Source: Raphanus sativus
Lineage: Eukaryota > Streptophyta > Magnoliopsida > Brassicales > Brassicaceae
DNA: 64,000 bases
Direction of reading: 5' to 3'
Assembly: GCF_000801105.2 (NCBI RefSeq)
Contig: NC_079519.1
Location: 35,253,288 to 35,317,287 of the forward strand
Position 1 is the first letter of the stretch. Each line of letters opens with the position of its first letter. The notes under the pieces were generated by a model. It made no database searches and had not been told where the DNA came from. It saw only the letters and a list, made by a program, of their open reading frames with translations. A program made the translations under genes and the position numbers. Shown piece after piece: positions 1,647 through 34,410 of this stretch.

Positions 1647-2288
1647 CTAGATTTTGACCCGCGCTTTGGAAGCGCGGAATATTTTACGATGAAAAATTTC
1701 ACTAATAACTTAACAAATATTTTGGTAATTTTTACAGAGTGTGTATTTAAAATATTTTTGCATTTAAATCAGTGTTTTTAAATTCAACCCGATTGTGATT
1801 ATACCGGTTAATCCGGAGATCTGACAATTCAATTTAGGTTTTTAAAATATTCATATTAAAAAAAATCAGTAGAACCCGAAAATAACCGATTGAACTGATG
1901 GATGACCGATATGTAATCTAATTGGATTTAAATTGTAATAGTTTCATAATTTGTAATCTTATAATCCAAATTTTAAAGTTCATTATTTTGCAATTTATAA
2001 AATTATGACATTTCTACAAAATTCTAAAGAGAAAATGATAGATATAAAATAAATAAGATTAATTATTGTATTGTTTGGAAACACTAATAGTAGTATAAAA
2101 ACATATTGTTTGGAAACATTGATAATAGTATAAGTATGTTTTGTTTGGAAACATGAATAGAAGTATAAAGAAAGAAACATTAGTGATTTAATGTAGGTTT
2201 AACTATAAAGTATAAAGGTGTATTTAATTTAAAAACTTACAAAATAAATGTTAGGCCCAACAGAATGTTTCTGTTTTAATAAGATAGA
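1647..2288 (-). mobile_element. non-autonomous Helitron, complete, minus strand
   Basis: Read on the minus strand, the element starts TCTATCTTATTAAAAC (ending at 2288) and ends in CTAG (1650-1647). A GC-rich hairpin of the type CGCGCTTcc.aaAGCGCG lies just upstream of the CTAG, at about 1658-1677. It is flanked by A on the 5' side and T on the 3' side, the hallmark A|T insertion of Helitrons, with no target duplication. It has no coding capacity. Internally it carries repeats of a motif around 'attgtttggaaacatt'. A near-identical copy in the opposite orientation lies at 53924-54569, and the two support each other's boundaries. Confidence 0.88.
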
Positions 2289-4763: not shown

Positions 4764-5042
4764 CAGAACATCTTCAATATATATCTTTATATATTCTTCT
4801 ATAATAAAAAGCTCTACTATAGAAGTTGATTTACTCCAATGTATGCTTCTATAATATAATTTCTCTATTTTAGACATAAATATAGAAGAATTTTACTTTT
4901 TGTTTTTATATTTACAGATGATAATAGTTCTCTATATTTTTTTCTATAAATAGAGAAATTCTATCATAAAGACATATGTTGGAGTAAATACACCTTTATA
5001 ATAGAGTTTGAGATGAAAATAGAGATGAGTTAGAGATGGTTT
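4764..5042. repeat. MITE-like inverted repeat, AT-rich
   Basis: The left end (gaacatcttcaat) and the right end (gagttagagatggttt, read in reverse complement) are imperfect inverted repeats. The interior repeats 'tctctat' and 'ataaatagaga' motifs on both strands. A related segment lies at about 48755-48840 (shared 'agagtaattctatcatagag'-like sequence). The family is not named, and no target duplication was identified with confidence. Confidence 0.4.
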
Positions 5043-5379
5043 CATCGGCTAGTATGTATTTTATATTATCTAATAACTACAGTTAATATCTTCAATATAA
5101 CTAAAACATATAATTAAATCAGAAATGCTAAGCTTATAATAAAATAACAAGTGACCTAAGGTTTCTGGAATTCTAAACAATATCCTAAACAGATACGATC
5201 TCTTCATCTCTCCTCTTTTTCACTTTTTATAATCTTTAAAGAGTTTTTTCTTGGATTTACCTCATAGATTCCCTAACTAATAGGGTTTTAATATTTCATA
5301 TTCAATATCTTTAAAAATATATTTATCAAGTTATATTATATTTTAAAAATAAAATAATAAAAATAAATAAAAGATAATA

Positions 5380-5953
5380 GTAGTTATCAAATCTTTTTTA
5401 ACACCATCACCAAAACACTAAATTTTTGGGTAGACCCTAAAAATTTGAATGAATTCTAAATTGTAAATCATAAATGCTAAAAACTAAATATTAAAAATAC
5501 TGAACCCTTAGTCCTAAACCATAAATCTTTGGATAAATCTAAGTCCTAAACTCTTGGATAAACCCTAAATCTTTGGATAAATAAGCCCTAAACCATAAAC
5601 ACTAATCTTAAAAACACTAAACTCTTAATTCTAAACCTTAAACTTGTATTTTTTTTAATATTTATAATGCCATCAGCAACACACTAAATCCTAAATTTTA
5701 AACACTATTCTCTAAATTTTTGGATAAACCATAAACTTTATGGTTTAGAATTTATCTAAAGGTTTAGGGTTTAACGTTAAGGATTTAGTATTTTTAAAAT
5801 TTAGTGTTTAATGATTATGATTTAGGGTTTAGAATTTATTCAAGGACTTTAGATTTAGTGTTTAGAATTTAGGGTTTAATATTTTGAATTTATGGTTTAG
5901 TATTTTGGTGACTACGTTAAAAATATATTTTTAAAAAATGGCAATTACTACAT
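5380..5953. repeat. inverted-repeat element rich in CCCTAAA-like motifs (copy 1)
   Basis: The left arm begins around 'tagtagttatc' and runs through 'taacaccatcaccaaaacac' into many 'aaaccctaaa' and 'taaacc' motifs. The right arm is its imperfect reverse complement ('tttagggttt' motifs, then 'ttttggtgactacgttaa' and 'caattactac'). No coding capacity. A shorter relative lies at 56580-56885. The telomere-like appearance is a by-product of the repeat composition; this is not an interstitial telomere. Confidence 0.5.
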
Positions 5954-8900
5954 TGGTTGGTGAATTTAGAAGGGATGAACCCATAAAAATCTATAGTTAA
6001 TACTCTTTAAGGTTTTTAAAAAGGAGAGTACGTGTTTGTTTGAACAAAATTGTGCGAGTGTAATAATTATAAACCTAGTTATAATGCTAAGATAGCCAAC
6101 GCTTTATATAACGTATAAAAAATAGCTAAAATGATTGATTTCTTAAGAATTGCTAATTTGCTACGTGTATTATATAGTTGATGGATTCAATAATAAAAAT
6201 GGTTTCACATTGGAAACTTTATTTTTAGATTTTTATGAAAATACGAAAACAAGATTTGTCTGGGCAAACAAAATCACATTTTGTTTGTTGTTGAAAAGTC
6301 TTTATTATTTTTATATAAACGCATTTTTTGATAACTATTTTCCATATCTCTTGTAGCGAAATACAGTGTTTTTCTTGTAGTGAAATACAGTGTGAAAGGG
6401 TCTAGATCAGTCAATGAACAACACATATATTCCTTATATATTTTTTAAAAATGAGAAATATTTTCGAAGTTGTAATCTTGATTACTATGTTAACCTATTA
6501 ACACTATGTCTTTTCTCAGAGCCCATATTTTAATGTCGCTAAGTTATTAAATATATTACAATATTGATGACCACTCATTACTATAATGTTTTCATTTATT
6601 AATTGCTATCATTTACAAAATATTAAACCAGTTTCGTTGTATACTTGCTAGCAAATAATTGGTTTTGTAAATTTCTTTATTAATCACATGTGATTTACAA
6701 GTATTCCTCATTTCTTTTTGACAAGTAATTTAGTAACTCAATATTTTATAGAATTATGTATTAATTAATAAATATATTTTCGGAATTTTGGTTACTGACT
6801 ATATAAGTTAATATTTTATGTATATCATCATTAATGTATACCAATTATTACTCATTTATATTTTATATTAGGGTATTTAATTTATGGTTTCGCCTAACTT
6901 AGTAATTTATAATTTAACAAATGAATAACTTAATATACGCTGAATATTTCAGTTACACATTAAAATATTTTAATATATGATTTTACTTTGGCTAAGGTGT
7001 GAATCTTGGCCTAGTAGTTACATTAATCTATTATATTTTAAATTTATTGTAGCTTACGATAATCTAAAGTGTCAAAGTATTTGAATTCCCTAAAATTAAG
7101 ATTGCAAATAATTTAAATCAAATATGATCGATCAATATAGAATGGTTTATCTCTTATCACCTAACAAAACAATGTTTTTATTAAAAGGCTTGACGTGGTT
7201 GCTGCACTAGAAGAACTCTTTGCAGAAGTTACTTTGAACTACGAATGATTTTTTTTTTTTGATAAAATGAAACTACGGATGATGGTAGACGTAAATTATA
7301 TTTTCGTGTAAATTAAATATGGTTTGATAGAGTTATTCACTGGAAGTATTTTACTATCGATTAAAAATTGGTTTTAAGACTATAGGGTGTTAAAAAGAAA
7401 ATATTTTAGTGTCATATGAAAATTTCAAAACTAGAAAGCCAGTTAGAAAAGAAAAATTTCAGAACTATTATTTGTAACTTTGTGGTCTCATCACACCGAA
7501 AGGTGATGTGAGTCGTTGTAAAGAAATGTCTAGTTAGATATAATATAAATGCATAAGATGAGTTTATGCACGCGGCTATCTCCCAACATTCCTAAGCTTA
7601 TATAAATCTCTTTTTTTTTATATTTACAAAGAAAATAATTTTGTTATTTATCGCCAATGACAGAGAACCAGAGAACGTCAATTCAACAGTTCATGGAACC
7701 ACAATGACTCAGGCCAACTAGGCAACAACTCAACATATCAGTGTTCTGCGGAATTTGATATTGGATATCTTATCAAAGATCCACTGGCTAACGAGTTTGA
7801 CTACTGAAATAGAGCGTGTCCTTGCTACGACACAAAAAAACCCCTTCTTGGAGATGACACCGATTTTGAGACAACAAGAAGGCAACTCTTTCTCACCGTC
7901 ACTCTACAATTTAGGGAGCCGATCAGGCAACAAACCACCAGATTGCCGTTCGTCAACACAATGGATTAGCAATATATATCTGTTTTTCTGCAGATAAATT
8001 ACAACTTCTCTTTTACTGCGTTCTCCTAATGGTATGAATCTTGCGATAGCCGTCCAATGCGTAACTTGTAACCATGTGTGCAGCTATAAAGTCACTAATG
8101 GCTCATTTTCATAAACAATTCGTTTTGTTCATACATATAAGAATAAGTTTAGTATTTTCACTGATATAAGCTTAGGGAAACAAAATTTCAAACATGCTCC
8201 ACAGATCTTATATCGAGAATCATATAAAGTAACTATGAGAGATTTTTAGAATCTAGTCGAATCCAGATTATGATTCCACCAAGTAAACATATAATTAACC
8301 GGTCACAAGCACAACCATTAGAATCTCTATATGGTACAATAACATAATAGTTAATTAATTCTTCTTTTTCGTTTTCTGAGGAAGATGTTGTCTTTTTGTT
8401 AATTAATTAAATGGTGTTGCTATTAACGTGCTATATTATAGCAATAGAGCTCGTCGGCTCGTCCTATGTTCCTATCCCAACTATAATATATAATGATATC
8501 TAGAACTAAACATGTGAAAGCTATGCGACCCATCATGACATTATTTAGAATTATCTATGCGCAAAGGACCTAAAATAACGGACTACGGTCCAATTTATAA
8601 AACAACACCGAAGATTATGTTTTTATTTGCTTTGTTCAAAAAAAAAAACACGGACATTATGTTTTTTTTTCTTTTAACCTCAAAAATCCGACCAAACCAC
8701 TTCTTAGATCTTGAAACGTTCGGAATATATAGATAATTTTGCCACGTAAAGTCTCTAGTGGCCAAACATAACAGAAACTCAAACTCTGAGGCTTTTACCA
8801 GATGAATCTGTCAACCACTTGTTCGAAAATTGGATATACCGTTTCGATTGTCTTGTAGCATAGTTAGGTTTAATAGACATGGGAATTATATAGCATCCAC

Positions 8901-11046
8901 AACAAGGGTTTAAATCTTTCTTGTTTAAGTCTCCACTAATAATATGAAATCAGTTCGTTTGGATCTTTACCTTACACGAAGATATTGACATTGGACTATC
9001 TCTGTGGTTTGCTACAAGATGACACACGATTTTCTATATTTTACATAGAAGCTCCATAATTTAAAAAAAAAAACTGATGCACTAGTTGTAAAAATGTTAT
9101 TTTCTTGTAGCGTAAATTTAACATATATTCAAAAAAAAAAAAGAAGATATTGACATTGTTCTTTCTTTTAATATCATTTAGATCACCTTGCGATCTATAA
9201 ATCTTAAATAACGAAAGAGAAAATATCGTATCAATGGGACCAGAAAGATAGAAAATGAGAGAAGCATGTCTTCTTGTGTTATGTTTTCTGCTCGCCACTT
9301 GAATGTTTTTGCAGACAAGAAGAGAGTGTATTTTGTTCACATCGATTTTGTTGCTCACTACTCAACGAAAATGGCAGTGTTTTTTGCCTGGCAACACGAG
9401 ACAGGCAGCACTTCCCAAACCTTTTACTATAATGCCCCTTGTCCCTTTCCCTAATTGGAACTTCTCTGCCATACTAGATAGAAAAAGGATCTTTCATATT
9501 TCCAAAAGCATTGATACCATTACACAACGAGCGTAGAATCTTGAGTTTTTTTTTTTCGTTTCTTTGAATAATGGATTAATGGTTCATCTATATTCTTATA
9601 AACTTTCGAAGAATTCCAAGAAAAGGTGGGTTTGTATCAAACTACCTTTACTCTAGACGCTAGGATATGTGATTTATTAAAACCGTGATTAATATCAAGG
9701 AATAAATACGTAAAACATGTGAAAACACCATATGTTATTTCTGGATATATATATTTTGTCTGACGGGTAGCTCCTGCATGAGTCGAAATGTCTGTTTCCT
9801 GCTGAAATATATAGAGTTAGATTTCCTCCACTAGAGGATAAGGAATTTACTGTAAGAAAGCTTCCAGATCTGTTTCTATATGCGTTACTTTTGCTATTCA
9901 GGAGTAATTTCCACATATAGAAAGAGTTATTTCGAGCTGAGAAGAGGATATAAAGGGGGTTCTTCCTTAAAACAAGCTTTGATGCCTAAGCCATACATCA
10001 ATAATCGACTAAGTATATTAACTCCAAAATGAGTATGAGTTACATGAGGAGTCCCGTCTGAGGATCGAGACTCTTATCTGTTGCAGGATTACAGTTAGAA
10101 TTCTCTTCTGGCCGCCCATTAGAAATATCATATATGTTTGGAACCACATTATGTTTAAGTCGGGCGATCAGACCGGTTCCGGCGAGTTAATAAGAATTGA
10201 AGACTAATTGGTGTTTGATAATTATATATTAGTTTTTGAATTTTTTCTGTGTATACATATAAATATCATATTTGTAGAGAGGGTACATCAAAACTTGTTA
10301 GCTCATATAAATTGTAGAATTCGAATTCAATCTTAGAACATCTCTAACTTCACTATATTTGCAAATTATAAAGTAAAATTGGAGATATTCTTATACAATT
10401 CTATACGGGGCGAAACTAGACTATTCATTTAATGGGTGCATTTTTACTAAAATATTTAATTAAGCTACATGTGTATATCGAACTTGAATTAATACGGATG
10501 CAAAGTTAGATTTTTGCCATCTAATACAACAAAGATTAGATAATTTTATATAGAAAGATATAAATATCAAGTTTACAAAAAAAAAAGATATAAATATCAA
10601 TATTATTGTGGGTGCACGTACCTCCATAGCTATGAACCTGTCTTCGTCCCTGATTCTATATCGATTCTTTTAGTTTTTCAATGAAGGACAAAATTGTATT
10701 ATCATAGTTATTTTTTGTGGTTTTCCTTGTTTTTACAAACAGTCTCTACTTTTTCAGCAATTTCACTATTTTGATCATTTTATAGCTTAGTTTTATCAAA
10801 CTATTATATATCCAACCAATACAGCTAAAATAAACTCGTCAAACAAAAACATTATTTTACCAAAAATCTGATTAATTAACCGATTACAGGAAATCTGTTT
10901 GGCTTGCCGCACATATAATAGACATCCAGGTGGCCATCTTAGACGACTTTCGAACATGGGGTATTTTTGTGGGTTAGTTTCTGTATGGAAAAGGAAAATC
11001 AATCACTTCCATAGGAGTCACCCTTCTCCTTATTATAGAGGATAAT
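5954..11046. other. gene-free intergenic DNA with decayed fragments
   Basis: No intact gene. Items seen: a possible CACTA-like right end near 6365-6382 ('gtgtttttcttgtagtg', with the preceding 'gaaatacagtgt' directly repeated) without a matching left end; a segment at 7670-7990 with more even base composition but no recognised protein; and, at about 9255-9302, a 15-codon hydrophobic stretch beginning MREACLLVLCFLLAT that looks like a signal peptide but stops at once, with shifted frames continuing to about 9536. None can be assigned a function. Confidence 0.4.
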
Positions 11047-12620
11047 TGTAATGACCCTCTTCCGGGGTGTTTTATTTAAAAAAAAAGAGTCCGCAAAAGA
11101 GATTTCTTTGTAAGGAAGTGAAAATTATTCCAAGTGTTGGAAATTTTGTTTCGTTATGAATGGAATAAGAACTGCATTTTTCCTAAGTATCAAAAGCCAT
11201 TGTACTATTTAAGCATCAATAATGAATAAGGATAAACTGACCATAGAACGATCAAAGTTTAAGGATGTGGTCGAGGACCGCAGAGGCCACTAAGGAAAGT
11301 TCGGACGTTCGGGAATGCAGGTTCCAAGTAAGGCAGATTCGAATATTCGTCCTTGGCGGGATGTCCCGAGGAAGGTCGGGTCTGTGGGAGTTGTTTAAGG
11401 AAGGAATTGTAGAGAATCAATAATGCCTTTATGGGCAAGGTTTGGCCAAGCCAAATAAGGAAACACCATTAAATTTCCGGCTTGGTGAGAAAGTACAAGG
11501 ATTGTATAAAAAGGGACCTCCAGCTCTCATTCTAGACACAACTCAAAAAGCAAGTCTTAGAGAGGGGCCATAGCAAGAACACAGTCTTAGAGAGAGTTTA
11601 GGAGAGGAGGATCTAGCAAGGAGGATCTCAGGACTCTTCGCCGGAAAACGTAACTAAGTTCAGAGTCTTCGATCTTTTAAGATCAATCCATATGAGAATG
11701 TGATTTGTGGCAGTTCAATGAGAATTATTTTGTGTGGCTTGATGCAGTAGAATCGACTTTATACTTAGATATAATTCGTTTATGGAAAGTTCGTTCATCG
11801 TGTTCATAGGAAAAATTATGACTGAATTGTATATGGAAAGTTTGTTCATCGTGTTCATAGGAAAAGTATGATAGCAATGGTTTATGGAAAGTTCGTTCAT
11901 CGTGTTCATAGGAAAAGTATGATAGCAATGGTTTATGGAATGTTCGTTCTTAAGTTCTTTAGGATTGCATGTTTAATTTGATGAATGATAATCGAGTTAT
12001 GTTAGGATGTTTATGTGAGAAATGTACGTTTGATCTTGAGAACCTAGGTAAAGAAATTTTCATGTGTTTAAGGGAAGAATAAACAAATTGAGTTAAGTAA
12101 GAAAACTGGTTAAGGGAATGTTATGGACCTCCGGGTCGCAGGTTTGGCTATGGGCCGTAATGGACTGACGGGTCACAGGTTGGCTACGGCCATAGAAACG
12201 GCTGGGGCCACAGGTACGGCTACGGCTAAGGCCACATGTTGGCTACGAGCGCATGTTTATGGGCCTTCGGATCGAAAGATTAGGAAATGCTAAAGTTAAT
12301 GAGAAATGTTAGAATTAATTAAGTCAAGGAATTTTATAACCGGATGTTAGGATGTTAGTCTTGATTGAGTATTTGATTGTTGGACTGTAGTGGGCGGTAT
12401 TGAGTGTCCTCACTGAGTACTTGTGTATGTTTATGCCTCTTTTTGTGATGCAGGTGATCAGTAGTTGGTTGGACCGGAGCATGGGACGATAAAGACATCA
12501 AGGGAAGTTTTCACAACTACGGATTGTATTTTACGGGCTTGTGGAAGTCAAGCTTTCAGAAATTGTAACAGTGTATCCATTCCTGCCAGGTTGGTGCCTT
12601 AGCATTCATTGCTTTTCAAA
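11047..12620 (+). mobile_element. LTR-like segment, possible solo LTR (right end uncertain)
   Basis: The segment begins TGTAATGACCC, a common start of plant Ty3/gypsy LTRs. It carries a TATA-like box TATAAAAAGG at 11505-11514 followed by a GC-richer, leader-like region with 'cttagagag' repeats, as expected of an LTR promoter. Base composition clearly differs from the flanks. It contains a 51-bp minisatellite (11781-11950) and a GC-rich imperfect repeat (12120-12265, 'ggctacgg', 'ccacaggt'). No gag-pol frame, no second LTR and no convincing target duplication were found. Another kind of repeat, or an old noncoding gene, cannot be excluded. Confidence 0.38.
11781..11950. repeat. 51-bp minisatellite, three units plus a partial one
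   Basis: Units start at 11781, 11832, 11883 and 11934, exactly 51 bp apart, each beginning 'tatggaa' and containing 'gttcatcgtgttcatagg'. Units 2 and 3 are almost identical; the last is truncated. Because 51 is a multiple of three, open frames pass through it on the minus strand, but these are low-complexity artefacts. Confidence 0.85.
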
Positions 12621-17686: not shown

Positions 17687-19593
17687 ATGTGTAATTTAAC
17701 ACCATCTTCTTCCTCGTCCTTACTATCTTCTAAAGACAAAACCCATTTATCAAAACTCGAAACCTGTGATGCTGACCATCCCCATTATTCCGATTTCACC
17801 GATGACGGTTCCCTAGACATTAATAGATGGCCAACTTTTCTCGAGGTATACTACTCTTATCATTAAAAGATAAAAAGTATATTTTCAATAAAAAAAAAAA
17901 GTATACTACTCTTTTTTTTTGACTAAAATATACTACTCTTTTTTCCCTCAAAACTCCATTCATCGTTTGGATTTTTTTGGTTTTTTCTGGTCAAAGGTTT
18001 TTATCCGACTAGAAAAAAATTAATCATTAACTATGTTGTTAAAAAAATTAAATCATTACCTAAAAATATAAAAGTTTGGTTTGATTAAAAATATCTACAG
18101 ACGTGGACGGTTCTTGTTCTTGACTTGCTTTTTTGTCTTTGATAATTTGGCGGCAGGGCATAGAGGAAGTGAAAGCGATCGGAAGAATCTCTGGGCCGAC
18201 GGCAATGACCGGGCTTCTTATGTACTCAAGAGCAATGATATCCATGTTGTTCCTTGGCTACCTCGGCGAACTGGAGTTAGCTGGGGGATCTCTCTCCATC
18301 GGCTTTGCCAATATCACCGGCTACTCCGTCATCTCCGGCTTGTCCATGGGGATGGAGCCAATCTGCGGCCAAGCTTACGGTGCTAAGCAAATGAAGCTTT
18401 TAGGACTAACCCTTCAAAGAACCGTCCTCCTCCTCCTCTCATGTTCGGTTCCCATCTCCTTCTCTTGGCTCAATATGAGGCGAATCCTCTTGTGGTGCGG
18501 CCAAGACGAAGAGATCTCCGCCGTTGCACAAAATTTCCTTCTATTCGCCATCCCTGACCTCTTCCTCCTCTCTCTGCTTCATCCTCTTCGTGTTTACCTC
18601 CGAACACAAAACATCACATTGCCTGTGACTTACTCCACGGCCGTCTCCGTCCTCCTTCACGTTCCGTTGAACTTTCTTTTTGTGGTGAAGCTCGAGATGG
18701 GAGTCGCGGGAGTCGCTATTGCTATGGTCTTAACCAATCTCAACCTCGTAGTCCTCTTATCTTCTTTTGTGTATTTCACAAGCGTGCATAGTGATACATG
18801 GGTCCCACTTACTATGGACTCTCTTAAAGGTTGGTCGTCTTTGCTCTCGCTTGCAATACCCACTTGTGTATCCGTTTGTCTGGAATGGTGGTGGTACGAG
18901 TTCATGATCATTTTGTGTGGACTTTTGGCTAACCCAAGAGCCACCGTTGCTTCCATGGGAATCTTGATCCAAACAACAGCTCTAGTCTACGTCTTTCCAT
19001 CCTCTCTCAGCCTCGGTGTGTCCACAAGAATCAGCAATGAGCTTGGGGCTAAACGCCCGGCGAAAGCTCGTGTGTCCATGATCATTTCCCTGCTCTGCGC
19101 GACCGCCTTAGGCCTAATGGCAATGGTGTTCACCTTGCTTGTTAGGCACCGATGGGGACGCTTGTTCACCACGGATGTAGAGATTCTTGAGCTGACTTCA
19201 ATTGCATTGCCCATCGTGGGTTTATGTGAACTCGGGAACTGTCCTCAAACGACCGGTTGTGGTGTTTTGAGAGGCTGTGCAAGGCCAACACTGGGTGCCA
19301 ACATAAACTTGGGTTCGTTTTACTTTGTGGGCATGCCGGTGGCTATTCTTTTAGGCTTCATTTTCAAACTAGGGTTTCCAGGTCTGTGGTTCGGCTTGCT
19401 TGCGGCTCAAGCGACATGTGCTTCTCTCATGTTGTTTGCACTCTTGAGAACAGATTGGGCAGTCCAAGCAGAGAGAGCTGAAGAACTGACGTCGAAAACA
19501 CATGGAGAAACTCCTCCTCTCCTCCCAATCTCCAGGGCTAAGAGCCGGTCTGCACCAGATACAGAAGATATGATGAGAACCATGTTGGTTTAG
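17687..19593 (+). CDS. DTX48: MATE efflux transporter, DTX48/ZF14 (BCD1) orthologue
   Basis: Two coding exons, 17687-17845 and 18157-19593, are joined by a GT-AG intron (CTCGAG|GTATAC ... GGCAG|GGCATA) in phase 0. They give a 531-aa protein, close to the 532 aa I recall for Arabidopsis At1g58340. The N-terminal 53 residues are soluble and Ser-rich. Two MatE halves follow: the first contains GPTAMTGLLMYSRAMIS, FLGYLGELELAGGSLSIGFA and GMEPICGQAYGAKQ; the second contains CLEWWWYEFMIILCGLL, GVSTRISNELGA and QTTGCGVLRGCARP. About 12 membrane segments are expected. The C-tail is hydrophilic and ends EDMMRTMLV. MATE proteins are cation-coupled antiporters of organic compounds; the Arabidopsis orthologue is linked to shoot growth and iron redistribution under stress. 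I see no disruption. The paralogue ABS3/ADP1 type is less likely given the near-identity to At1g58340. Confidence 0.95.
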
Positions 19594-24452: not shown

Positions 24453-24461
24453 TTCCAACAA
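24453..24461. repeat. 9-bp MULE target-site duplication, left copy
   Basis: TTCCAACAA is repeated exactly at 34402-34410. Nine base pairs is the duplication size made by Mutator transposases. Confidence 0.85.
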
Positions 24462-24500
24462 GGGCTTATTGCAAAAGTGACTCAAAACTTGAATTCAAAC
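24462..24500 (+). repeat. MULE left terminal inverted repeat
   Basis: Starts GGGCTTATTGCAAAA, followed by GTGACTCAAAACTTG (24477-24491) and a further 'tcaaac'. It pairs with the reverse complement of 34363-34401. The 15-bp GTGACTCAAAACTTG core is exact; the outer 15-16 bp are diverged. Confidence 0.75.
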
Positions 24501-24945
24501 AGAAAACTAACCTTTTCTTTTGACTCATTTTTTTTTTGAGTTTTTAACCCCACATCTGCATTTTATCTACGAAAATGCCATTAACCCTTTTTTTTTTTTT
24601 TTTTCGAAAATGGCTTCTTTACTGTCTCAACCTCATTTTCTTCAAGTATTTACAATATTGCCACTGCCATGAATAGTGGGAACAACCTTGTACGAACTGT
24701 TTGGAGCTTTTAATGCCCTTTAATGCACGTAAATCTCTTTACACTCTCTCTGTTTCAATTGTTATGAACTAAAAACAACATTTCTTTCACTTTCTCTCCA
24801 TATTCATCCAAAAAACTGAAGCTTTTGATTCAAAATTGTTTGGAGCCATATTTCTTTCGTTTTGACTTACGGTTGCTTTCGTTTGAGGTTCTGGGTGGTT
24901 GGAGAAGACCCTGTGTGCAAACAAAGTCATCTCACCTAGTTGAAG

Positions 24946-25889
24946 GTACGAATTTGAATTTTTTTCAAAATCTGTTCGCGTAGAAGACTTACAAGTAAGT
25001 CATCTGTATGTAGAAGACTTACTGATGAGTCTTCTGGTCAAACGGACGACTTAAACTAAGTCGTCCAGCTTTGTTTGGTGAAAAAAAACAGTCCAGACGA
25101 CTTATATATAAGTCGTCTACGAGAAACAGGCTAGTTTTGCATTTGACCGAATCGTGTCAGATCTTTGACTATTTCTGGACGACTTATAATTCAGTCGTCT
25201 CTCGGAAAGTTAAAATTTCAATATTTTATTAAACTAGACGACTTACGTGTAAGTCGTCTTAGGTTAGTTTTGTAGTTGAAAAATAAAACTTCATAATTTA
25301 ATTTTTACCAGACGACATAATATAAAGTCGTCCCGTCAGAAGACTTAATTTAAAGTCGTCCGGGGAAAGCAAAGTCGTCCAGAATTTTTCCCAATTAAGT
25401 CGTCCAAACCTTGCTTATCCCGGACGACCTTAAATTAAGTCGTCTAGCTGGACGACTTTTAGTTAAGTCGTCTGGAGAAAGTTAAATTTCAAGTTTTATT
25501 TTTCAATTACAAAACTAACCTGGGACGACTTACGTGTAAGTCGTCTAGTTTGAATAAAATATTGAAATTTTTACTTTCCAGAGACGACTGATTTATAAGT
25601 CGTCCAGAAATAGTCAAAGATCTGACACGATTCGGTCAAATGCAAAACTAGCCCGTTTTTCGTAGACGACTTATATATAAGTCGTCTGAATTTTTTTTTT
25701 TAACAAACAAAGCCGGACGACTTAGAATTAAGTCGTCCCTTTTAATTTTCAATTGCAAAAGTGACCTCTTTAGACGACTTACCTTTAAGTCTTCTGGACG
25801 ACTTAAATCTAAGTCGTCTGCGATAATGTTTGTTGAACTTCTTCATTTTCTCTATGTTTACTAATGTGTTTTATTTTGAATATTTGCAG
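24946..25889 (+). other. presumed 5'-leader intron of the transposase gene, packed with motif copies
   Basis: A donor-like GAAG|GTACGA at 24946 and an acceptor TTTGCAG at 25889, immediately before ATG, suggest a 5'-UTR intron of about 944 bp. It holds about 24 exact copies of AAGTCGTC/GACGACTT, mostly as facing pairs, and the large inverted repeat described separately. The intron is inferred from consensus sites only. Confidence 0.5.
25041..25740. repeat. large inverted repeat in the transposase leader
   Basis: The arm at about 25041-25300 is the imperfect reverse complement of the arm at about 25480-25740. Corresponding landmarks include 'tttgcatttgaccgaatcg' against 'cgattcggtcaaatgcaaa', 'gtcagatctttgactatttc' against 'gaaatagtcaaagatctgac', and 'ggttagttttgtag' against 'attacaaaactaacc'. 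A roughly 180-bp spacer separates them. A transcript would fold into a long hairpin. Confidence 0.85.
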
Positions 25890-28313
25890 ATGATTTTTAA
25901 GTTACATGCAGTGTATGGAGAATGGTTGTTGAGAGATTTCCGTTGGGATTTTGTGGTTGATGATCTCAAAGGAGCAAGATTGTTTTTATTGAATGAAGAT
26001 TCAACACATGCTGAACTTGTTGCAATGGCTCAAGAAGATTATAACCTGGACATGAGATCAGTGACTGTGGAGATTAGCTACTCATTACCAGCAGAAATGA
26101 TGATGACTCCAAGCAGTCCTCCCATTCATGTTACAAGTGATAGACAAGTTCGAAACTTGCTCGAGATACTCAAAACGCATAGAGTATGTCTTTGTGTATC
26201 AAGCCGCAGCAAGGTGGAAACGGTTTCAGAGAAAAGAGAAGAAGCTGGTGATAATGATGAAGCTGGTGAATGGGAAGAAGATGTTGGTGATAATGATGAA
26301 GCTGGTGAATGGGAAGAAGATGTTGGTGATAATGATGAGGCTGATGAATGTTTTGAAGATGTTGGTGATAATGAGTCTGTTGAAGATGAAAATCAAGATG
26401 GGGAGGAGGAAAATGGGGAGGAGGAAAATGGGGAGGAGGATGCTGATAACACTATTGTTGGTGAAACGGATCAGAATGGTGGGGATTACAGTCTTTATGG
26501 AAAGGTTCTAGATGAGGACGAGGAAGATGATGATAATATTTGTTTTGAAGAAATTGAAAAGACATATGCTAAGACAAATGCTATTGAAGGAGGAAAATCG
26601 GATTGTACCAGCATCTATGTCAACCAGAGTTTTGTTAGCAAGGATGCACTGCTTTCAGAGCTGCGGTTGACAGCAGTGAGGGGTAGGTTTTCTTTCAGAA
26701 TATACAAATCAACAAAAACTCTCCTTGTGGCAATATGTCGGGTTAGCGGTTGTGGATGGAAGATCAGAGCGAGTGTGAAACATGGGTCAAACACGTTTTG
26801 GGTAACAAAGTATGTGGAAAAACATTTATGCTCAATTGGAGACCGAATCGCTCAGCGGAGACACTGTACTCCAAAGTATGTTGGTAGTCTTTTCATTGAT
26901 CGTGTTGGGATCATTGATGGGATAACTCCACAGCATATCACTGATGCAATGAAGAACATGTTTGGCATGACGCTTGATTACACCACTTCATACAGAGCAC
27001 TGTTATATGCACAGAAATTGGTGAGAGGATCAGCAGAAGAAGGGTATTCGCGTCTGCCTTCATATCTCGAGCAAATCTCCATTGCAAATCCTGATTCTAT
27101 CACGGCTATAGAACTTGATTCTGAGAAAAGATTTAAGTATCTATTTCTCTCTTTTGGAGCTTCTATCAAAGGTTTTAAGTATCAGAGAAGGGTCATTGTG
27201 GTGGATGGAACTCACCTAAGTGGAAAGTATGGAGGTGTTATGTTAGTTGCAGCCGCACAAGATGGCAATTTTCAGATATTCCCATTGGCTTTTGGGATCG
27301 TGGATGCTGAAGATGAACCTTCTTGGGAATGGTTTTTCACAAAATTGGCTAGTTGTATATCTCATGACAAGCCTCTGGTGATAGTCTCTGACCGGCACGC
27401 GGCCATTAAAAGTGCGTGTGAGAAGGTGTTTCCTTGGGCAACCCGAGGAATATGTTATTATCACCTTCAAGATAACATTGTCAAAAAGTTTAAAGGGAAA
27501 CATCTCATGTACTTGGTGAAAGGGGCTGCTTATGCGCACACGGTTCACGATTTTAACCGGTACATGGCTGAGATACGGAGTGCAAACCCGGAACTTGCAA
27601 CGTATTTGGAGAAGGCCGACGCCAAGCTATGGTCAAGGGTTTATTGTAAGGGGAACAGGTTCAACATAAAAACAAGCAACATCGCTGAATCTATTAATTC
27701 CGCACTGAAGCGAGCAAGAGGATTTCCGATTCCGTTCCTGCTGGAGTTCATAAGGCAGAAGTTAGGAAAATGGTATTGGAAAAGGAGACAAGATGCTTTG
27801 AGTCTCCCAACTGTACATAGCCGGGGTGTTGAATACTTGCTTGCTGTTCGATCAGAGATAGCGGATACGATGACGGTCGAACCAATTGATGGATGGCGTT
27901 TCTTTGTCAAAGGTGGCAAAATGGACTGTGCGGTTGATTTGGAACATGTAAAGTGTGGTTGTGGTGTCTATGGAGTGGAGAAAATACCTTGCTCTCATGC
28001 TATAGCAGCTGGAACACATGCTGGTGTGCATATCGACACACTTGTATGTCCACTTTACTCAAAGAATCATCTGTATGCAGGATACTCAGAGAATATATAT
28101 CCTATCGTGTCACAACATATTGAGGAACGAGAATGCTTTCCTCCAAACGTAAAGCGTGGTCCGGGGAGACAGAAGAAATCAAGATGGCAATCTTGGTTGG
28201 AGCTATCTAGGATGAGGGGACACAAACCCAGGAAGAAACACAGGGCACGGAGATGCTCAAACTGCAAGGAAACTGGCCATACGAAACCACAATGTACACA
28301 ACCAGTTGACTAG
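25890..28313 (+). CDS. MuDR/MURA-type transposase
   Basis: One uninterrupted 807-aa frame. I place the start at 25890 because ATG directly follows a TTTGCAG acceptor; the frame stays open upstream, with another ATG at 25854. Order: an N-terminal region (1-110) seen in plant MULE transposases; an acidic stretch (about 113-227) with tandem GDNDEAGEWEEDV and GEEEN repeats; a MuDR zinc-binding domain (about 246-314) with CRVSGC and a KHLC end; the MULE DDE core with D439 in VVDGTHLSGKYGG, D501 in VIVSDRHAAIKSAC and candidate E600 in NIAESINSALKRARG; a SWIM zinc finger (about 688-706, CGCG...CSHAIAA); and a CCHC knuckle near the C-terminus (CSNCKETGHTKPQC). It would catalyse excision and insertion of this element and relatives. 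All catalytic and zinc residues appear present, so activity is plausible. Confidence 0.92.
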   Translation: MIFKLHAVYGEWLLRDFRWDFVVDDLKGARLFLLNEDSTHAELVAMAQEDYNLDMRSVTVEISYSLPAEMMMTPSSPPIHVTSDRQVRNLLEILKTHRVCLCVSSRSKVETVSEKREEAGDNDEAGEWEEDVGDNDEAGEWEEDVGDNDEADECFEDVGDNESVEDENQDGEEENGEEENGEEDADNTIVGETDQNGGDYSLYGKVLDEDEEDDDNICFEEIEKTYAKTNAIEGGKSDCTSIYVNQSFVSKDALLSELRLTAVRGRFSFRIYKSTKTLLVAICRVSGCGWKIRASVKHGSNTFWVTKYVEKHLCSIGDRIAQRRHCTPKYVGSLFIDRVGIIDGITPQHITDAMKNMFGMTLDYTTSYRALLYAQKLVRGSAEEGYSRLPSYLEQISIANPDSITAIELDSEKRFKYLFLSFGASIKGFKYQRRVIVVDGTHLSGKYGGVMLVAAAQDGNFQIFPLAFGIVDAEDEPSWEWFFTKLASCISHDKPLVIVSDRHAAIKSACEKVFPWATRGICYYHLQDNIVKKFKGKHLMYLVKGAAYAHTVHDFNRYMAEIRSANPELATYLEKADAKLWSRVYCKGNRFNIKTSNIAESINSALKRARGFPIPFLLEFIRQKLGKWYWKRRQDALSLPTVHSRGVEYLLAVRSEIADTMTVEPIDGWRFFVKGGKMDCAVDLEHVKCGCGVYGVEKIPCSHAIAAGTHAGVHIDTLVCPLYSKNHLYAGYSENIYPIVSQHIEERECFPPNVKRGPGRQKKSRWQSWLELSRMRGHKPRKKHRARRCSNCKETGHTKPQCTQPVD

Positions 28314-28884
28314 TTGTCCAGACGACCTAAATATAAGTCGTCCAGTCTTGATTACCCGTCCAGACGACTAATTTCTAAGTCGTCCAGTGTTTCGTCTACC
28401 TTCTACGAAGTCGTCCAGTGTATTAGACTACCTTCTACTATCCCTTCAAGTGTATTTTTTTATTTTTAGACTACCTTATTTTTTTTAGACGACCTTATTT
28501 GTAAGTCGTCCAGCTGGAAAACCTTCCAGACGACTTATTTGTAAGTCGTCCAGCTGGAAAACCTTCCAGACGACTTATTTGTAAGTCGTCCAGCTGGAAA
28601 ACCTTCCAGACGACTTATTTGTAAGTCGTCCAGCTGGAAAACCTTCCAGACGACTTATTTGTAAGTTAGAAAATCTATACAAGTTAGAAAATCAAATAAA
28701 TCATACATGCCCACAAACATACAAATAGATTTGTGTAAACAAATAGTTCAAATATACAAATAGATTTGTGTATACAAATAGTTCAAATATACAAATTGAT
28801 TTGTGTATCTATACAAGTTAAAAAATCTATACAAGTTAAAAAATCTATACAAGTTAAAAAATCTATACAAATTGATTTGTGTAT
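28314..28884. repeat. shared 3' region of the two convergent MULE genes
   Basis: About 11 motif copies occur here. A 40-bp unit is repeated four times at 28501-28660, each with gtaagtcgtccagctgg and ccagacgactta. Then 28680-28870 holds AT-rich short repeats ('caaatagatttgtgta', 'tctatacaagttaaaaaa'). Both 3' UTRs must lie here, so transcripts of the two genes may overlap. Confidence 0.7.
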
Positions 28885-31800
28885 CTAATCATACATGCCT
28901 ACAAACATACCACCATCCTCATTATCTTTCAGATGCTGATCAACAAGCTCCGTCCATATAGCCAAAGCCATAGTATCCCTCATAGTCTTCGCATTGGACC
29001 TAGCAAAGTCTTTAGGGCTAAAGGGGACCCCAAGAGCATGACATTCAATGTACTTTGCAGCGTACACGCCACAATCACCATTGTTGGCCGTGGGTACATC
29101 TTTGAGGAGTCTCTCATAAGTGTATCGCTCCAACCCATGCATCTGGTCTCCGCACTCCACAATCAGATAAGGGACCATCTCGAGAAAAGGCTCCATTATC
29201 TCATCCCATCTTTCTGGTATGGTAGTTGAAGGTATGCTGTCCCAGACGACTATGTGCCTCTTAGGGATCGATATCCAAATAGCCACCCAATGTTTGTTGT
29301 CCAAGTTCAGTGGCGCATAGATATCATCAATGTCCTCCCCCCACTTCTTGTTTGATTGGCAAAATGAAGGCATTGATCCGTCATACAAACTCGCCGCCCC
29401 ACTAGGTAGCATTTTTCCTAAACCATTGTGATCAGACGACGATGTTTTGAAGACCAGATACTGTTCTCTCCAAGACTGGGTAAAGTTGTGATCCAGGAAG
29501 CACATTCGCTCGCTCCGGAAACATTGTGGGTTCTCCTTATACCTCTGCCTCAGCACATTCATCCAAGCATCTATATGCTGCATATAAAATAATACAAGTT
29601 AGAACCTTCCAGACGACTTACAAATAAGTCGTCTGGAAGGTTTCCAGCTGGACGACTTACAAATAAGTCGTCTGGAAGGTTTTCCAGCTCGAAAACCTTC
29701 CAGACGACTTATTTGTAAGTCGTCCAGCTGGAAAACCTTCCAGACGACTTATATATTTACAAATCTATACAAAGACAAGTTACCAGACGACTTATTTGTA
29801 AGTCTTCTGGAAGGTTTTCCAGCTGGACGACTTACAAATAAGTCGTCCAGCTGGAAAACCTTCCAGACGACTTATATATTTACAAATCTATACAAAGACA
29901 AGTTACCAGACGACTTAAAGATAAGCAGAAGACTTACTACGTCTTCCAGCCATGCTTTGGATGTCCGGAGTTTTTGATACCACCAAGTTGGTGATGTACG
30001 TGGTTTGTCCTCTTCCTTAGTGAAATAATCACTGCAAACAAAAAAGCAATCAGTTTTGGTAGACTAAATCAAGCTATTATGGGTAAAGCAATCACTTACG
30101 GATCAGTTTTCAACCAATCAGCGAGCTCCTTCATCTTAGGTCTGTTTAGTGTGGGAAATGGATTATACTTTCCCACTCTAAGGAGTTTCCTTCTCTCTGC
30201 CGTATAAGGAGATATCTGCGTGGGAGCAGGTTTCTTCGTTCGTTCACTCCTTGCACGCACAGAAGCAGTGGGAGCTGTTTGGTCCAATACAACCAGGCTC
30301 GGTTCTGAAGCTGAAGCTGGATCGGTGGAAGCGAAGCTCGGTTGTTGATCGTTGGAAGCGAAGCTCGGTTGGTCAGTGGAAGTGAGAGGAACAATCTCTT
30401 TGGAGGTGACACCATCTGCTTTATCCTCCGGCAAGATCTTATATACCGAGATCGCCTCATCTGCTGTATCCTCCGGCAACAATCTCTGCAATAAAAGAGA
30501 ACAAGTTAACCCTGGACGACTTAAATAAAAGTTGGGAGAGGATTTGGTTCCAGCTGGAGTTCAGACGACTTATTTGTAAGTCTTCTGGAAGGTTTTCCAG
30601 CTGGACGACTTACAAATAAGTCGTCTGGAAGGTTTTCCAGCTGGAAAACCTTCCAGACGACTTATTTGTAAGTCGTCCAGCTGGAAAACCTTCCAGACGA
30701 CTTATATATTTACAAATCTATACAAAGACCAGACGACTTAAAGATTTGATATTAACCTCTTTGGGCAGAGGAGAAGGCTGTTTCTTTTGTGGAGAAGGCT
30801 TTTTCGTTTGAGGAGCAGGCTGTTTCGTCTGAGGAGCAGGCTGTTTAGTTTGAGGAGCAGGCTGTTTCGTTTGAGGAGCAGGCTGTTTAGTTTGAGGAGC
30901 AGGCTGTTTAGTTTGAGGAGCAGGCTGTTTCGCCTTTTGAGGAGTAGGCTTTGCCTTTTGAGGAGCAGGCTGTCTGGTGGGAGGAGTAGGATGATTGGTT
31001 TGAAGTGGAGGCTGATCCTTTTGAGGAGTAGTCTGTTTGTTACTAGCCCCGGTTTCTGGGGCTTGTGGGGTAGGGTGTTTTTTACTAACCCCGGTTTCTG
31101 GGGCTTGAGGGGTAGCCTGATTGGTGACACCAACCTTCTTCTCCACAGCTTCCAATCTATCGGAGATCTTCCTAATCTCCCTGATGCACTTCTTAAACCC
31201 CTCTTTCATCATGTCACCTAAGTCCTTGAACATGTTTTCTAACTCCTCTCTGGTCACCCAACTAGCCTCTTCTCTAGCCTCTTCTGTAGCCTCTTCTGTA
31301 GCCTCTGTAGGAGCCTCTTCTCTAGCCTCTTTAGGAGCCTCTTTAGGAGCCTCTTTACGAGCTTTCTTCCGAGGTCTCTGATTGTCTTCCTCCACCTCCT
31401 CCACAACCATCTCTTTGGCTCTTTTCGATGGAGTCACAAACTTGGGTTTTGTACCAGTGACTTCCCAGCAATCCATGGTCCACTTCCACGGTCTCCGATC
31501 ATACATCACTTTAATGATGTTCTCCGCGGGCACGTCATCAACCTCAGAGTCCCATTTTGGCCACATTTCACTAATGTCCTTCTCAACAAAGTTGATCACG
31601 CGGGTCTGCAGTAAATAGAAGAAGAATCGAGTTAGATATTTGAAACAAAATACTAAATAGACGACTTAATTATAAGTCGTCAACTAAGTCGTCCAGCTGG
31701 ACGACCTTCCAGACGACTTATTATAAGTCGTCTACTAAGTCGTCCAGCTGGACGACCTTCCAGACGACTTATAATAAGTCGTCTACTAAGTCGTCCAGCT

Positions 31801-33139
31801 GGAAGACCTTCCAGACGACTTATAATAAGTCGTCTACTAAGTCGTCCAGCTGGAAGACCTTCCAGACGACTTATAATAAGTCGTCTACTAAGTCGTCCAG
31901 CTGGAAGACCTTCCAGACGACTTATAATAAGTCGTCTACTAAGTCGTCCAGCTGGAAGACCTTCCGGACGACTTAATTAAGTGAAGATGGAAAGGTACCT
32001 GACTCAAGATAGCAGCTTTCATGAATCTGCGGCCTCTGCTGCCGTCGTAAGCCAGAATCGGTGGAGACGGACTGTTTGCTCTGGGTAGACCAATACTAGC
32101 ACCCAATCCCGGAATAGCTTCGTACGCCCAGACCTGAAGAACTTGTATAAAGCCATCCACGGTGTAACAGCCAGTAATATCTTTGTTCCACAAAGAGTCC
32201 ATCAGCACCTTAAACGCGACTCTCCCCCATGGATAATTCTCAAACCTTTCTAAATCCATCACTAGCCTTGCGAGAGTAGCTCGTGTAGCGCTTGAGAACT
32301 TTTTCCCTTCAATGAATCCAGTGAAGATGGAAAGGTACGCGAGTCGCTTGCGATCTTCCCTGGACCAATCCCCGCATCTCTTCAGTGCTGCTATTATCTG
32401 ATCAGTACTTGGCCCAGCTTCCCGATGAACTCCCATCATCTCCCAGAAAGAAACCATCTGTGGGGTAACTTCACATTCTGGTGTCTCAAGGTCCTCGATG
32501 TAGTCGCAGTTTAGACCAGTGATGTTTTCAAACTCTAACAGTGAAAACCTCGCAGGTTCTGGACCAACGAGACACCACATCTCGTACTTCTTCTTAATGT
32601 CCAGCTTTAAACCGAGCAAGTGGTGAACCAGCCTTGAAGCCCAACCAAATCCCTGCTCCTTGAACTTGATGAAAACTCCCAATCTCGACTCCTTGAGCTC
32701 TTCAAATTCAGCATCAGTGAGAGCTTCCCTAAGAGCAGTATGCAACTTCGTGTTATCCGTATGATACGAAATGCTATTGTGGGGTTCTGGCTCTTCCCCT
32801 AATGTGTATAACCTACGGGGGAGTTCTGGAATATCCATCCTTTTTGTCTGCAAAATAATCAAAGACAACAATAGAAGTCAGAACACAAGCTAAATCAATC
32901 ACGCCTTAATTGTTACTCCAGACGACTTAGTAGACGACTTAAATATAAGTCGTCTAGAAAGTCGTCCAACTGGACGACTTAGTTGACGACTTATATTTAA
33001 GTCGTCTGGAAAGTCTTCCAAATGGACGTACTAAGTCGTCCAGGTTGAAGACTTTCCAGACGACTTACTTACAAGTCTTCCAGTAGAAAAATTTCAAGCG
33101 GACCTGATTAGTCGCAGAAGGAGTTCGAGTACTCGTCAT
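28885..33139 (-). CDS. DUF1985 and Ulp1-like (C48) protease protein carried by the MULE
   Basis: Six coding exons on the minus strand, all GT-AG and in phase: 33139-33104, 32847-31999, 31605-30757, 30485-30100, 30031-29938, 29577-28885. They encode 968 aa, starting MTSTRTPSATNQ. Exon 2 encodes a DUF1985 domain. Exon 3 has a basic patch (RPRKKARK), an Ala/Glu-rich repeat, a coiled coil, and about six tandem QPAPQTK units. The last exon has the Ulp1/SENP cysteine-protease core: His834 (NKHWVAIW), Asp851 (VVWDSIP) and Cys907 (NNGDCGVY). Ulp1 enzymes cleave SUMO from proteins; transposon versions have unknown substrates. The Gln normally six residues before the catalytic Cys is Thr here, so activity may be altered. 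DUF1985 proteins of VANDAL elements include anti-silencing factors. It is not the host SUMO protease, which lacks DUF1985. Confidence 0.88.
29578..29937 (-). repeat. ULP intron 5 with motif repeats
   Basis: The 360-bp intron between the last two exons has about 12 exact motif cores arranged in units with 'ccagctgg' and 'aaccttcc' spacers. Its donor, GTAAGTCTTCTG, is itself a variant copy of the motif. Confidence 0.7.
30486..30756 (-). repeat. ULP intron 3 with motif repeats
   Basis: A 271-bp intron with about 8 exact motif cores in the same unit as intron 5. In contrast, intron 4 (30032-30099, 68 bp) is minimal and has none. Confidence 0.7.
31690..31995. repeat. 51-bp tandem array, six units, in ULP intron 2
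   Basis: Units start at 31690, 31741, 31792, 31843, 31894 and 31945. Each contains cgtccagctgga, ccagacgactta and ataagtcgtctactaagt, so each carries three motif cores. It fills most of the intron 31606-31998. Near-identity of the units indicates recent expansion. Confidence 0.88.
32848..33103 (-). repeat. ULP intron 1 with motif repeats
   Basis: A 256-bp intron with about nine motif cores, less regular than the downstream arrays. Confidence 0.65.
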
Positions 33140-33244
33140 TGTGGTTATAGATCTGAAAAAATAAACGTGAAACGGTGAGAATGAGTAAATTGAAAGAGAC
33201 AACGTTTTATGTTCATCTTTTCCACGAGTTTGATGACTTACCGG

Positions 33245-33480
33245 CGTTAGGGTTTACAGAGAAACGGCGCTACGGTTTACAGAGAAGAAGCGGCGGCGCT
33301 AGGGTTTAGAAGAAGCGGCGGCGCTAGGGTTTAGAAGAAACGGCGGTGCTAGCTAGTGTTTAGAGTAAGCGGCGGTGAGAACGTTGGTGAGCACGGTGGC
33401 GAGGGCGACGGTTTGTTCGGAAATAGTGGAAGCGGGGCGCTAGGGTTTAGAGGAATCGGCGGCGCTAGGGTTAGAAGAAG
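33245..33480 (-). promoter_or_regulatory. GCC-box and telo-box minisatellite upstream of the ULP gene
   Basis: An imperfect 25-bp repeat reads, on the gene's strand, AAACCCTA followed by GCGCCGCCG and 'cttcttc'. Clear units lie at about 33247, 33300, 33325, 33437 and 33465. It lies 100-340 bp upstream of the ATG, in the likely promoter or leader. AAACCCTA is the telo-box found in promoters of growth-related plant genes, and GCCGCC is the core bound by ERF factors. Function here is inferred. Confidence 0.5.
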
Positions 33481-33699
33481 CTGCGGCGACAACGGTGAGA
33501 ATGAAGTGAGATAGATAGCCGACGTTGAGAACGATGGTTGTTCGGAAATAGTGGGAATTCGAATCGCCTTTGATATCGCCGGTGAGAGAGAACTGTTAGG
33601 GTTTCTGTTCGCGGAAAATGAAAAAAAAAAAAAAAAATCACCTTATATATTGGGTAAATAATCCGGTTAGCTTTAAAAGTACATTGGTAAACTTTAAGG

Positions 33700-34260
33700 T
33701 TTGGTCCGGTTTAGACGACTTATTCTGGCTGATAATGTACATCAGACGACCTAATATTTAGTCGTCTGGGAACAGAAGACTAAATATTAAGTCGTCCAAT
33801 ACCCTAAAATGAACCCCTAAACTAAAATGACTAAATTAACTTACTAACCACGTTATAAAATCAAATTATACTTCAATAGTGTTTACTATACACAGAAACG
33901 AACACGCCTAGGTAATTTTAAAAATTTTCAAAAACGGTTTTAATGCTTTCCAAAATCTAACCCTAAGAACACATACAATACTACAACATATGTTGATGAA
34001 ACATAAACTAAAGAATATCATGACTCACTACTTTCACTCATCTGGGCTGAAAACAATTGAAATTTGTTATATATTAATTTATATCTCTTAAGACATATGT
34101 TAATTACATAATTCCAATTTTTCACTTATCAAAATATTTTTTACAAAATTTTTAAATTATGTTTAAGAATAACTGTCCAGACGACTTAACTTAAAGTCGT
34201 CTGGACGACTTATTTTCAAGTCGTCTGTTTACAGACGACTTGCGAGGGGTAGAAACGTAA
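33700..34260. repeat. right subterminal region of the MULE
   Basis: Scattered motif copies at 33713-33795 and 34176-34245, otherwise AT-rich noncoding DNA leading to the right end. Confidence 0.6.
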
Positions 34261-34362
34261 AAAAAAATCCGTTTTTTTGTTTGTTCACAAGGAGATAGTT
34301 GTAATTTCAATAGCCTTTTAAGTTACTTTTGCCTTTGACCCAAGTTGGGGTACTCTTTTGGG

Positions 34363-34401
34363 TTTGACTCCAAGTTTTGAGTCACAATTGGTAATTCTCC
34401 C
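34363..34401 (-). repeat. MULE right terminal inverted repeat
   Basis: In reverse complement it starts GGGAGAATTACCAATT and continues into GTGACTCAAAACTTGGAGTC, matching the left end. Confidence 0.75.
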
Positions 34402-34410
34402 TTCCAACAA
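34402..34410. repeat. 9-bp MULE target-site duplication, right copy
   Basis: TTCCAACAA, identical to 24453-24461. Confidence 0.85.

Follow-up and report, generated by a model that had tools for sequence, protein, structure and literature searches.

A fixed-gap inverted dyad in the non-coding DNA of a Ulp1-carrying VANDAL-type MULE of radish and its possible role in anti-silencing

We identified in Raphanus sativus an element that is best explained as a recently amplified, multi-copy, Ulp1-carrying VANDAL-type MULE of radish and that carries 90 exact copies of a short core word (AAGTCGTC or GACGACTT). These cores lie at positions 24462-34401 of the window (the whole 64,000-nt stretch of DNA that was analysed), against 3 in the other 54,060 bases; the initial annotation had arrived at about 90 by hand count. 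Many of the cores face one another to form a 22-bp dyad, and this dyad is specific to the family of the element in its own genome, where sampled. On the basis of homology, architecture and within-genome specificity, the best reading is one of VANC-type anti-silencing: on balance, the DUF1985-Ulp1 protein of the element probably reads TAAGTCGTCY dyads and thereby un-silences its own family.

The element and its genes

The element is bordered by an exact target-site duplication and presents the following features:

24453..24461, left target-site duplication of 9 bp, TTCCAACAA, exact match to 34402-34410
24462..34401, complete MULE of 9,940 bp, with ends GGG...CCC and an exact 9-bp duplication outside both ends
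24947..25889, + strand, transposase leader intron region, 24 cores (boundaries inferred from sequence only)
25890..28313, + strand, MULE transposase (MURA/VANA type) of 807 aa in a single open frame, with Pfam MULE, Transposase_mut, DBD_Tnp_Mut and SWIM
28314..28884, intergenic region, 11 cores, with a 40-bp tandem repeat at 28487-28666
28885..29577, - strand, ULP exon 6, Ulp1/Peptidase_C48 part (Pfam PF02902, residues 734-950)
29578..29937, - strand, ULP intron 5, 12 cores
29938..30031, - strand, ULP exon 5
30032..30099, - strand, ULP intron 4 of 68 bp, no core
30100..30485, - strand, ULP exon 4
30486..30756, - strand, ULP intron 3, 8 cores
30757..31605, - strand, ULP exon 3, repetitive (PAPQTKQ) region, with a 21-bp repeat at 30768-31038
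31606..31998, - strand, ULP intron 2, 19 cores, with a 51-bp tandem array at 31659-31982 and a fold z of -23
31999..32847, - strand, ULP exon 2, DUF1985 (Pfam PF09331, residues 93-229 of the spliced protein)
32848..33103, - strand, ULP intron 1, 9 cores
33104..33139, - strand, ULP exon 1, with the start codon
33140..34401, right terminal region, 7 cores
34402..34410, right target-site duplication of 9 bp, TTCCAACAA

VANDAL-type (non-TIR) MULEs combine a MULE transposase with a 9-bp target-site duplication and have no long terminal inverted repeats. The element presents the Pfam matches, the exact TTCCAACAA duplication and just a 15-bp word (GTGACTCAAAACTTG) common to both ends, which within the window is found only there. 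Its transposase is 99% identical over 100% to Raphanus LOC130512453, and a Raphanus sativus transposase record (P0121) is 99% identical over its whole length. A 39-bp tandem repeat lies within the transposase coding region (26237-26374), where six residues are missing in P0121, and genomic copies of the transposase present open frames of 828 or 822 residues. No third gene was apparent in or near the element among 12 open frames that reach 90 aa or more, where each belongs to or overlaps one of the two genes; a third gene rich in introns could escape this listing. To the left of the element, the sole frame of at least 130 aa encodes a 486-aa MATE transporter (18133-19593; Pfam MatE, E 4e-70), and a 51-bp tandem repeat of 3.4 copies, without the core, is found at 11778-11949.

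The second gene (ULP) has six exons on the - strand, opposite the transposase. The splice model was built from the letters of the DNA alone; its joined exons read through to one terminal stop and the inspected joins are GT-AG. The spliced product of 968 aa contains DUF1985 (PF09331, E 1.2e-26, 93.8 bits for a cut-off of 35.1), whose presence in an element-encoded protein characterizes the VANC family, and an Ulp1 protease domain (PF02902, E 3.5e-34), which in the DUF1985 gene of a MULE characterizes KIU/KI-MULE elements. H834, D851 and C907, the presumed catalytic residues of the Ulp1 part, are present in the expected words. An AlphaFold2 model of exon 2 with 46 homologues reached a pLDDT of 57.8 and its best Foldseek match in the PDB had an E of 1.3; with this low-confidence model and no fold match, no DNA-binding fold of DUF1985 was recognized, a point against the anti-silencing reading. 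A match to the Plant mobile domain (E 4e-4, below the cut-off) pointed to MAIN/MAIL1, a lead that was dropped, as the passages available give no letters for the MAIN/MAIL1 motif.

Maximum-score matches were obtained for at least 75 of the 137 scored genomic matches to the DUF1985 exon and for at least 35 of the 56 scored matches to the transposase, the window copy included in both; these are lower bounds because scoring covered the best candidates only, and unplaced contigs may in some cases duplicate copies that are already placed in the assembly. Two copies (L009 and L010) align with the element from base 1 to 9940 and another (L008) from base 26 to 9940, and for the 30 fetched family loci the longest piece that aligns with the window is on average 99.67% identical to it. 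This identity and the many maximum-score matches indicate that the family moved recently. One diverged copy (L073; 92% nucleotide identity and, in exon 2, 90% protein identity) presents 24 exact cores in 3.0 kb.

Placement and geometry of the core

All 90 cores fall in the 4,609 non-coding bp of the element, where they occupy seven of nine compartments, and none in the 5,331 coding bp. By exact count, cores are absent from the left terminal 485 bp, from the transposase coding sequence and from all six ULP exons. The initial annotation was thus right to see no core in coding exons or in the 68-bp intron 4 and to find four of the five ULP introns occupied, and its hand count holds as well; it did not mention the empty left terminal 485 bp. 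Shuffling the element 200 times while preserving dinucleotides gave a mean of 0.4 cores and a maximum of 3. The absence of cores from exons is, however, expected of any repeat spreading in unconstrained DNA, which counts against the anti-silencing reading.

In 88 of the 90 cases the core is followed by a T or a C as the ninth base. Allowing up to one mismatch yields 115 cores in the element, and the 25 additional variants are AAGTCTTC (10), AGGTCGTC (6), AAGTCATC (3), TAGTCGTC (3), CAGTCGTC (2) and ATGTCGTC (1). A check for CpG loss among these 25 found no AAGTTGTC and the 3 AAGTCATC, and the observed/expected CpG ratio is 1.21 in the non-coding DNA of the element versus 0.55 in its coding DNA. 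These values could reflect youth or low methylation.

When each core is allowed one mismatch, the element contains 41 facing pairs within 20 bp. Their start offsets are 14 (34 pairs), 13 (6 pairs, of which a single 51-bp array contributes five) and 15 (one pair). The dyad is 22 bp long, GACGACTTA-N4-TAAGTCGTC, with a variable centre. The initial annotation had described facing pairs separated by 0 to 6 bases; the pairs are real, but their gap is nearly fixed. The rest of the window contains 21 cores at the same tolerance and no facing pair. When exact cores were used as anchors, 66 of the 90 had a GACGAC partner (up to one mismatch) at an offset of 13 or 14; a single core had its partner elsewhere in the range of 6 to 24.

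Eleven units of the leader intron, a set that omits three units in the second arm of a 230-bp inverted repeat and one offset-13 unit, show a mean information that falls from 1.62 bits over the two 8-bp arms to 0.54 over the 6-bp centre and 0.24 over the flanks; the arm value is inflated because units were picked by near-match arms and a 14-bp offset, and the exact-core offset count is free of this selection. The leader-intron dyads keep a constant spacing with unlike flanks and centres. Helical phasing of the 15 leader-intron dyads gave a p of 0.002 at 10.2 bp and no signal at 10.0, 10.4, 10.5, 10.6 or 11.0, a value that is uncorrected and includes non-independent inverted-repeat partners. The 230-bp inverted repeat (25075-25304 / 25478-25707) is 86% complementary, and in the predicted fold most of the leader intron (24950-25889) is taken up by a single extended, imperfect hairpin (-532 kcal/mol, z -37.7). 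A transcript of this hairpin could trigger silencing in trans.

Distribution in radish and its relatives

The dyad was counted across the genome and in related copies. The 433-Mb assembly contains 6,017 places that match GACGACTTA-N0-8-TAAGTCGTC and none that match a reversed control pattern. The 50 listed places, which cover the first 9.7 Mb of C1, form five clusters, all of them shortened copies of the element. Three have internal deletions (L008, L009 and L010, of about 7.3, 7.0 and 3.1 kb), one is a 670-bp fragment of the left end (L011) and one a 2.5-kb fragment of the right end (L012); identity in their main aligned pieces is 97.6-100%. Each of the 30 fetched family loci contains 20-51 cores in 3.0-3.8 kb. 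In contrast, 30 distant DUF1985 loci (the best 30 of 150 scored by Pfam, about 27-31% identical, 2.3-3.4 kb each, and several of them near-identical to one another) contain 4 cores in total. These counts bear out the earlier suggestion of a self-specific motif where sampled, and a family-specific short word repeated in non-coding DNA is what characterizes VANC target arrays. On viral contigs, we found three single dyads, probably by chance, and no transposase relative.

Within 1.5 kb of the domain, these 30 distant loci present no comparable saturating word except telomere-like repeats at one locus (L054). A tandem-repeat search at 14 of them found no similar array; the repeats observed were a 40-bp repeat at L055 (3.1 copies) and short repeats at L065 and L068. 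At these loci DUF1985 is therefore not always accompanied by such arrays, which counts against the anti-silencing reading. So does intron 1 of the diverged copy L073, where cores are altered along with neighbouring bases and no special conservation of the word is visible by eye.

Using a Eutrema protein, we found a nearer DUF1985 clade and sampled two of its loci (L074 and L075), each 54% identical to the element in DUF1985 and 74% identical to one another in DNA. Neither contains AAGTCGTC; instead, GAAGTCTAC occurs 7 times in L074 and 6 times in L075, against none in the element. This word lies all one way in L074 and four against two in L075. In both loci it is carried by tandem repeats located just upstream of the DUF1985 exon (a perfect 20-bp repeat of 6.7 copies at L074:571-704, and a 33-bp repeat of 2.5 copies in L075). 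When reading of the L074 gene is continued into the following exon, it reaches a stop before any Ulp1 part, and this gene apparently lacks Ulp1. Written as AGTCTACA, the word of this clade has AAGTC-N2-C in common with that of the element. A different word in the nearer clade is as co-diversification predicts, which these two loci of one clade, a small sample, support.

For Brassica, the comparison was made through proteins, using gene models that extend into non-coding DNA. With its 14-bp offset, the dyad translates to DDLx[LIV]SR, a pattern found in 8 of 223 homologous proteins at 9 places, versus 0.04 in shuffled proteins. A relaxed pattern, D[DN][LF]x[LIV]SR, set after seeing one of the proteins (P0001), is found in 10 of 223 at 12 places, versus 0.1 in shuffled proteins, and when its letters are rearranged in 120 ways, no pattern that is not equivalent occurs in more than 3 proteins. 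The second reading frame of the dyad is present in 1 of 223. The ten carriers of the relaxed pattern comprise one protein of Raphanus, five of B. rapa, three of B. cretica and one of B. oleracea. Judged by its neighbours, the translated dyad lies at these places:

P0126 and P0135, at the start of the transposase model
P0189, P0198 and P0214, near the transposase C-terminal end
P0012, P0027 and P0096, before DUF1985
P0001, between the equivalents of exons 3 and 4 of the element
P0090, just before the last ULP exon

The DUF1985 of P0012 and P0027 is 71% and 65% identical to that of the element, so that the word has persisted over that distance. In P0001 one arm would read GACAACTT, a VANC6-like variant, and codon choice leaves other readings. 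This Raphanus protein (LOC130508558) has an apparent translated motif array at residues ~385-420 (LSRPG...PDNFYLSRPG), which suggests that its gene model probably runs into an intron.

Known VANC systems and explanations of the dyad

Hosaka 2017 (PMC5735166) reports DUF1985 as a domain of VANC proteins, in line with the link made in the initial annotation, and reports that VANC21 binds YAGTATTAY and VANC6 targets AGTTGTCC/AGTTGTAC, both in non-coding tandem repeats. The same study describes VANC21 motifs in one orientation and VANC21 arrays that occupy introns as well as intergenic and terminal non-coding DNA, with repeat units gained and lost between copies. The degenerate frame AGTNKTMY, i.e., AGT-N-(G/T)-T-(A/C)-(C/T), is common to TAAGTCGTCY and the VANC6 and VANC21 motifs as given there; the published motifs suffice to derive it, but because the comparison was drawn after seeing the motif of the element, it supports a relationship without deciding it. 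The word of the nearer clade does not fit this frame. The claim that the motif differs from those described is thus correct letter for letter and does not extend to this shared frame.

VANDAL6 of Arabidopsis resembles the element in encoding a protein of the VANC family (with DUF1985) in a MULE and in repeating a short word in its non-coding DNA, and the VANC6 motif AGTTGTCC differs from AGTCGTCC by one base. Unlike a VANDAL6 array, however, the element contains AGTTGTCC once and AGTTGTAC not at all, and it has inverted dyads and an Ulp1 domain. VANDAL21 (Hiun), also of Arabidopsis, shares this placement of arrays and the gain and loss of their units between copies, but YAGTATTAY is absent from the element and VANDAL21 has a third gene, VANB. 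In addition, the pairs of the element are inverted at 13-14 bp where VANC21 motifs share one orientation, which counts against the anti-silencing reading; same orientation is a reported feature of VANC21 targets, not one shown there to define all VANC targets. By the description in a 2026 review (PMC13317346), KIU/KI-MULE elements (Hoen 2006; Sasaki 2022) are, like this element, non-TIR MULEs with a transposase and an Ulp1-bearing VANC-type gene, and they recognise motifs of their own kind (the review citing Sasaki 2022); they have three genes there, whereas two were found in the element. In the literature covered, to which most subscription papers did not belong, we found, among the best-matching papers, neither an account of this dyad as the motif of a transposon nor one of such a system in radish. 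Arabidopsis is reportedly home to at least ten such systems, with gain and loss of DUF1985, DUF287 and Ulp1. What is new here is the inverted fixed-gap dyad, the radish host and a nearby clade with another word; VANC-type anti-silencing itself is known, KIU being judged by the description in the review.

In the mechanism that we favour, the DUF1985-Ulp1 protein, a VANC relative, would bind TAAGTCGTCY as two half-sites of the 22-bp dyad across a 4-bp (sometimes 3-bp) gap, and two half-sites per dyad would point to probable binding as a dimer or as paired subunits. Dense dyads in the seven compartments would let the protein coat its own family, deletion derivatives included, and the coated family would be stripped of silencing with the rest of the genome spared. 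By analogy with published VANC work, such binding is most likely and would be accompanied by loss of methylation. The Ulp1 part, a SUMO protease, might conceivably be used at the bound chromatin.

Alternatively, the arrays may be sources of hairpin RNA, i.e., transcribed inverted repeats diced to small RNAs that silence the family, as host defence or self-limitation, with no element protein reading the word. The leader intron and intron 2 fold largely as long hairpins (z -37.7 and -23). The core is contained in cabbage bol-miR9410 and bol-miR9411, which gave northern blot signals (PMC3840582), and, in broccoli, in 11 novel miRNAs numbered up to Bro-m0184 and in the 22-nt miR400-3p with 10,669 reads (PMC4920421). 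We compared with the element 16 small RNAs, of which 14 contain the exact core and 2 a near variant. The number of mismatches was zero for 3, one for 3, three or four for 7 and six or more (6-7) for 3; 7 comparison small RNAs from the same tables also have 6-7 mismatches. The exact matches of 21-22 nt, at 31708-31729 and 32997-33020, are those of broccoli miR400-3p, Bro-m0076 and Bro-m0170, which are probably transposon-derived. These matches make it probable that the arrays, or related arrays in Brassica, are transcribed and processed by dicing and thus feed silencing too; the published lists, being filtered for miRNA-like features, are silent on 24-nt siRNAs. On the other hand, the three worst-matching small RNAs do not fit the element, hairpins need neither a fixed 8-bp word, nor a 14-bp offset with a free centre, nor one word in seven compartments, and the word of the nearer clade is tandem and mostly in one orientation (all in L074, 4 against 2 in L075). 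We therefore regard hairpin production without a protein reader as unlikely. It can nevertheless be true together with anti-silencing, since RdDM and VANC21 share targets in the same non-coding DNA of Arabidopsis (PMC10398659). A joint reading, which we put forward only tentatively, is that a dimeric DUF1985-Ulp1 protein would sit on the fixed-gap 22-bp palindrome and bring its SUMO protease to its own chromatin, that the nearer clade would use GAAGTCTAC mostly in one orientation, and that the 21-22-nt products of dyad hairpins, published as Brassica microRNAs, would make one array serve both silencing and anti-silencing.

The remaining explanations appear weaker. Neutral spread of a minisatellite, in which slippage and inverted duplication multiply the word in non-coding DNA and nothing reads it, would account for the 40-, 51- and 52-bp tandem arrays, for the counted units of the 51-bp array (5, 5 and 6 in the window, L008 and L009) and for the decay of motif bases in L073, but the leader-intron dyads keep their spacing despite unlike flanks and centres, and the dyad persists in P0012 and P0027 at 65-71% DUF1985 identity; this explanation is improbable. 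Binding sites of the transposase, like the subterminal repeats of other DNA transposons, would be consistent with the 7 cores of the right terminal region. The initial annotation had proposed either this protein or the DUF1985/Ulp1 protein as reader; Pfam confirms a DUF1985 and Ulp1 gene in a MULE, and the transposase option is weak, given the lack of cores in the left 485 bp and the presence of a different word, GTGACTCAAAACTTG, at both ends. Most cores are internal, and we consider such binding sites very unlikely. Finally, a host transcription or splicing factor might read the word. GTAAGT is the consensus of splice donors, some units contain it, and the inferred donor of intron 5 lies within a variant of the motif; against this stand the scarcity of cores elsewhere in the window (3) and in the other DUF1985 loci (4) and the fact that all 50 listed genomic dyads belong to the family of the element, and we give a host factor hardly any credence.

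If the anti-silencing reading is true, VANC-type anti-silencing, worked out in Arabidopsis, would extend to a crop with a young multi-copy family. Related pairs of protein and word in one genome would then offer ready material to find the DNA-reading part of DUF1985 proteins, and the inverted arrangement would allow direct tests of dimeric binding and of what the Ulp1 domain does. The matches to small RNAs also suggest that transposon arrays are the source of some miRNAs published for Brassica, among them bol-miR9410, bol-miR9411 and broccoli miR400-3p.
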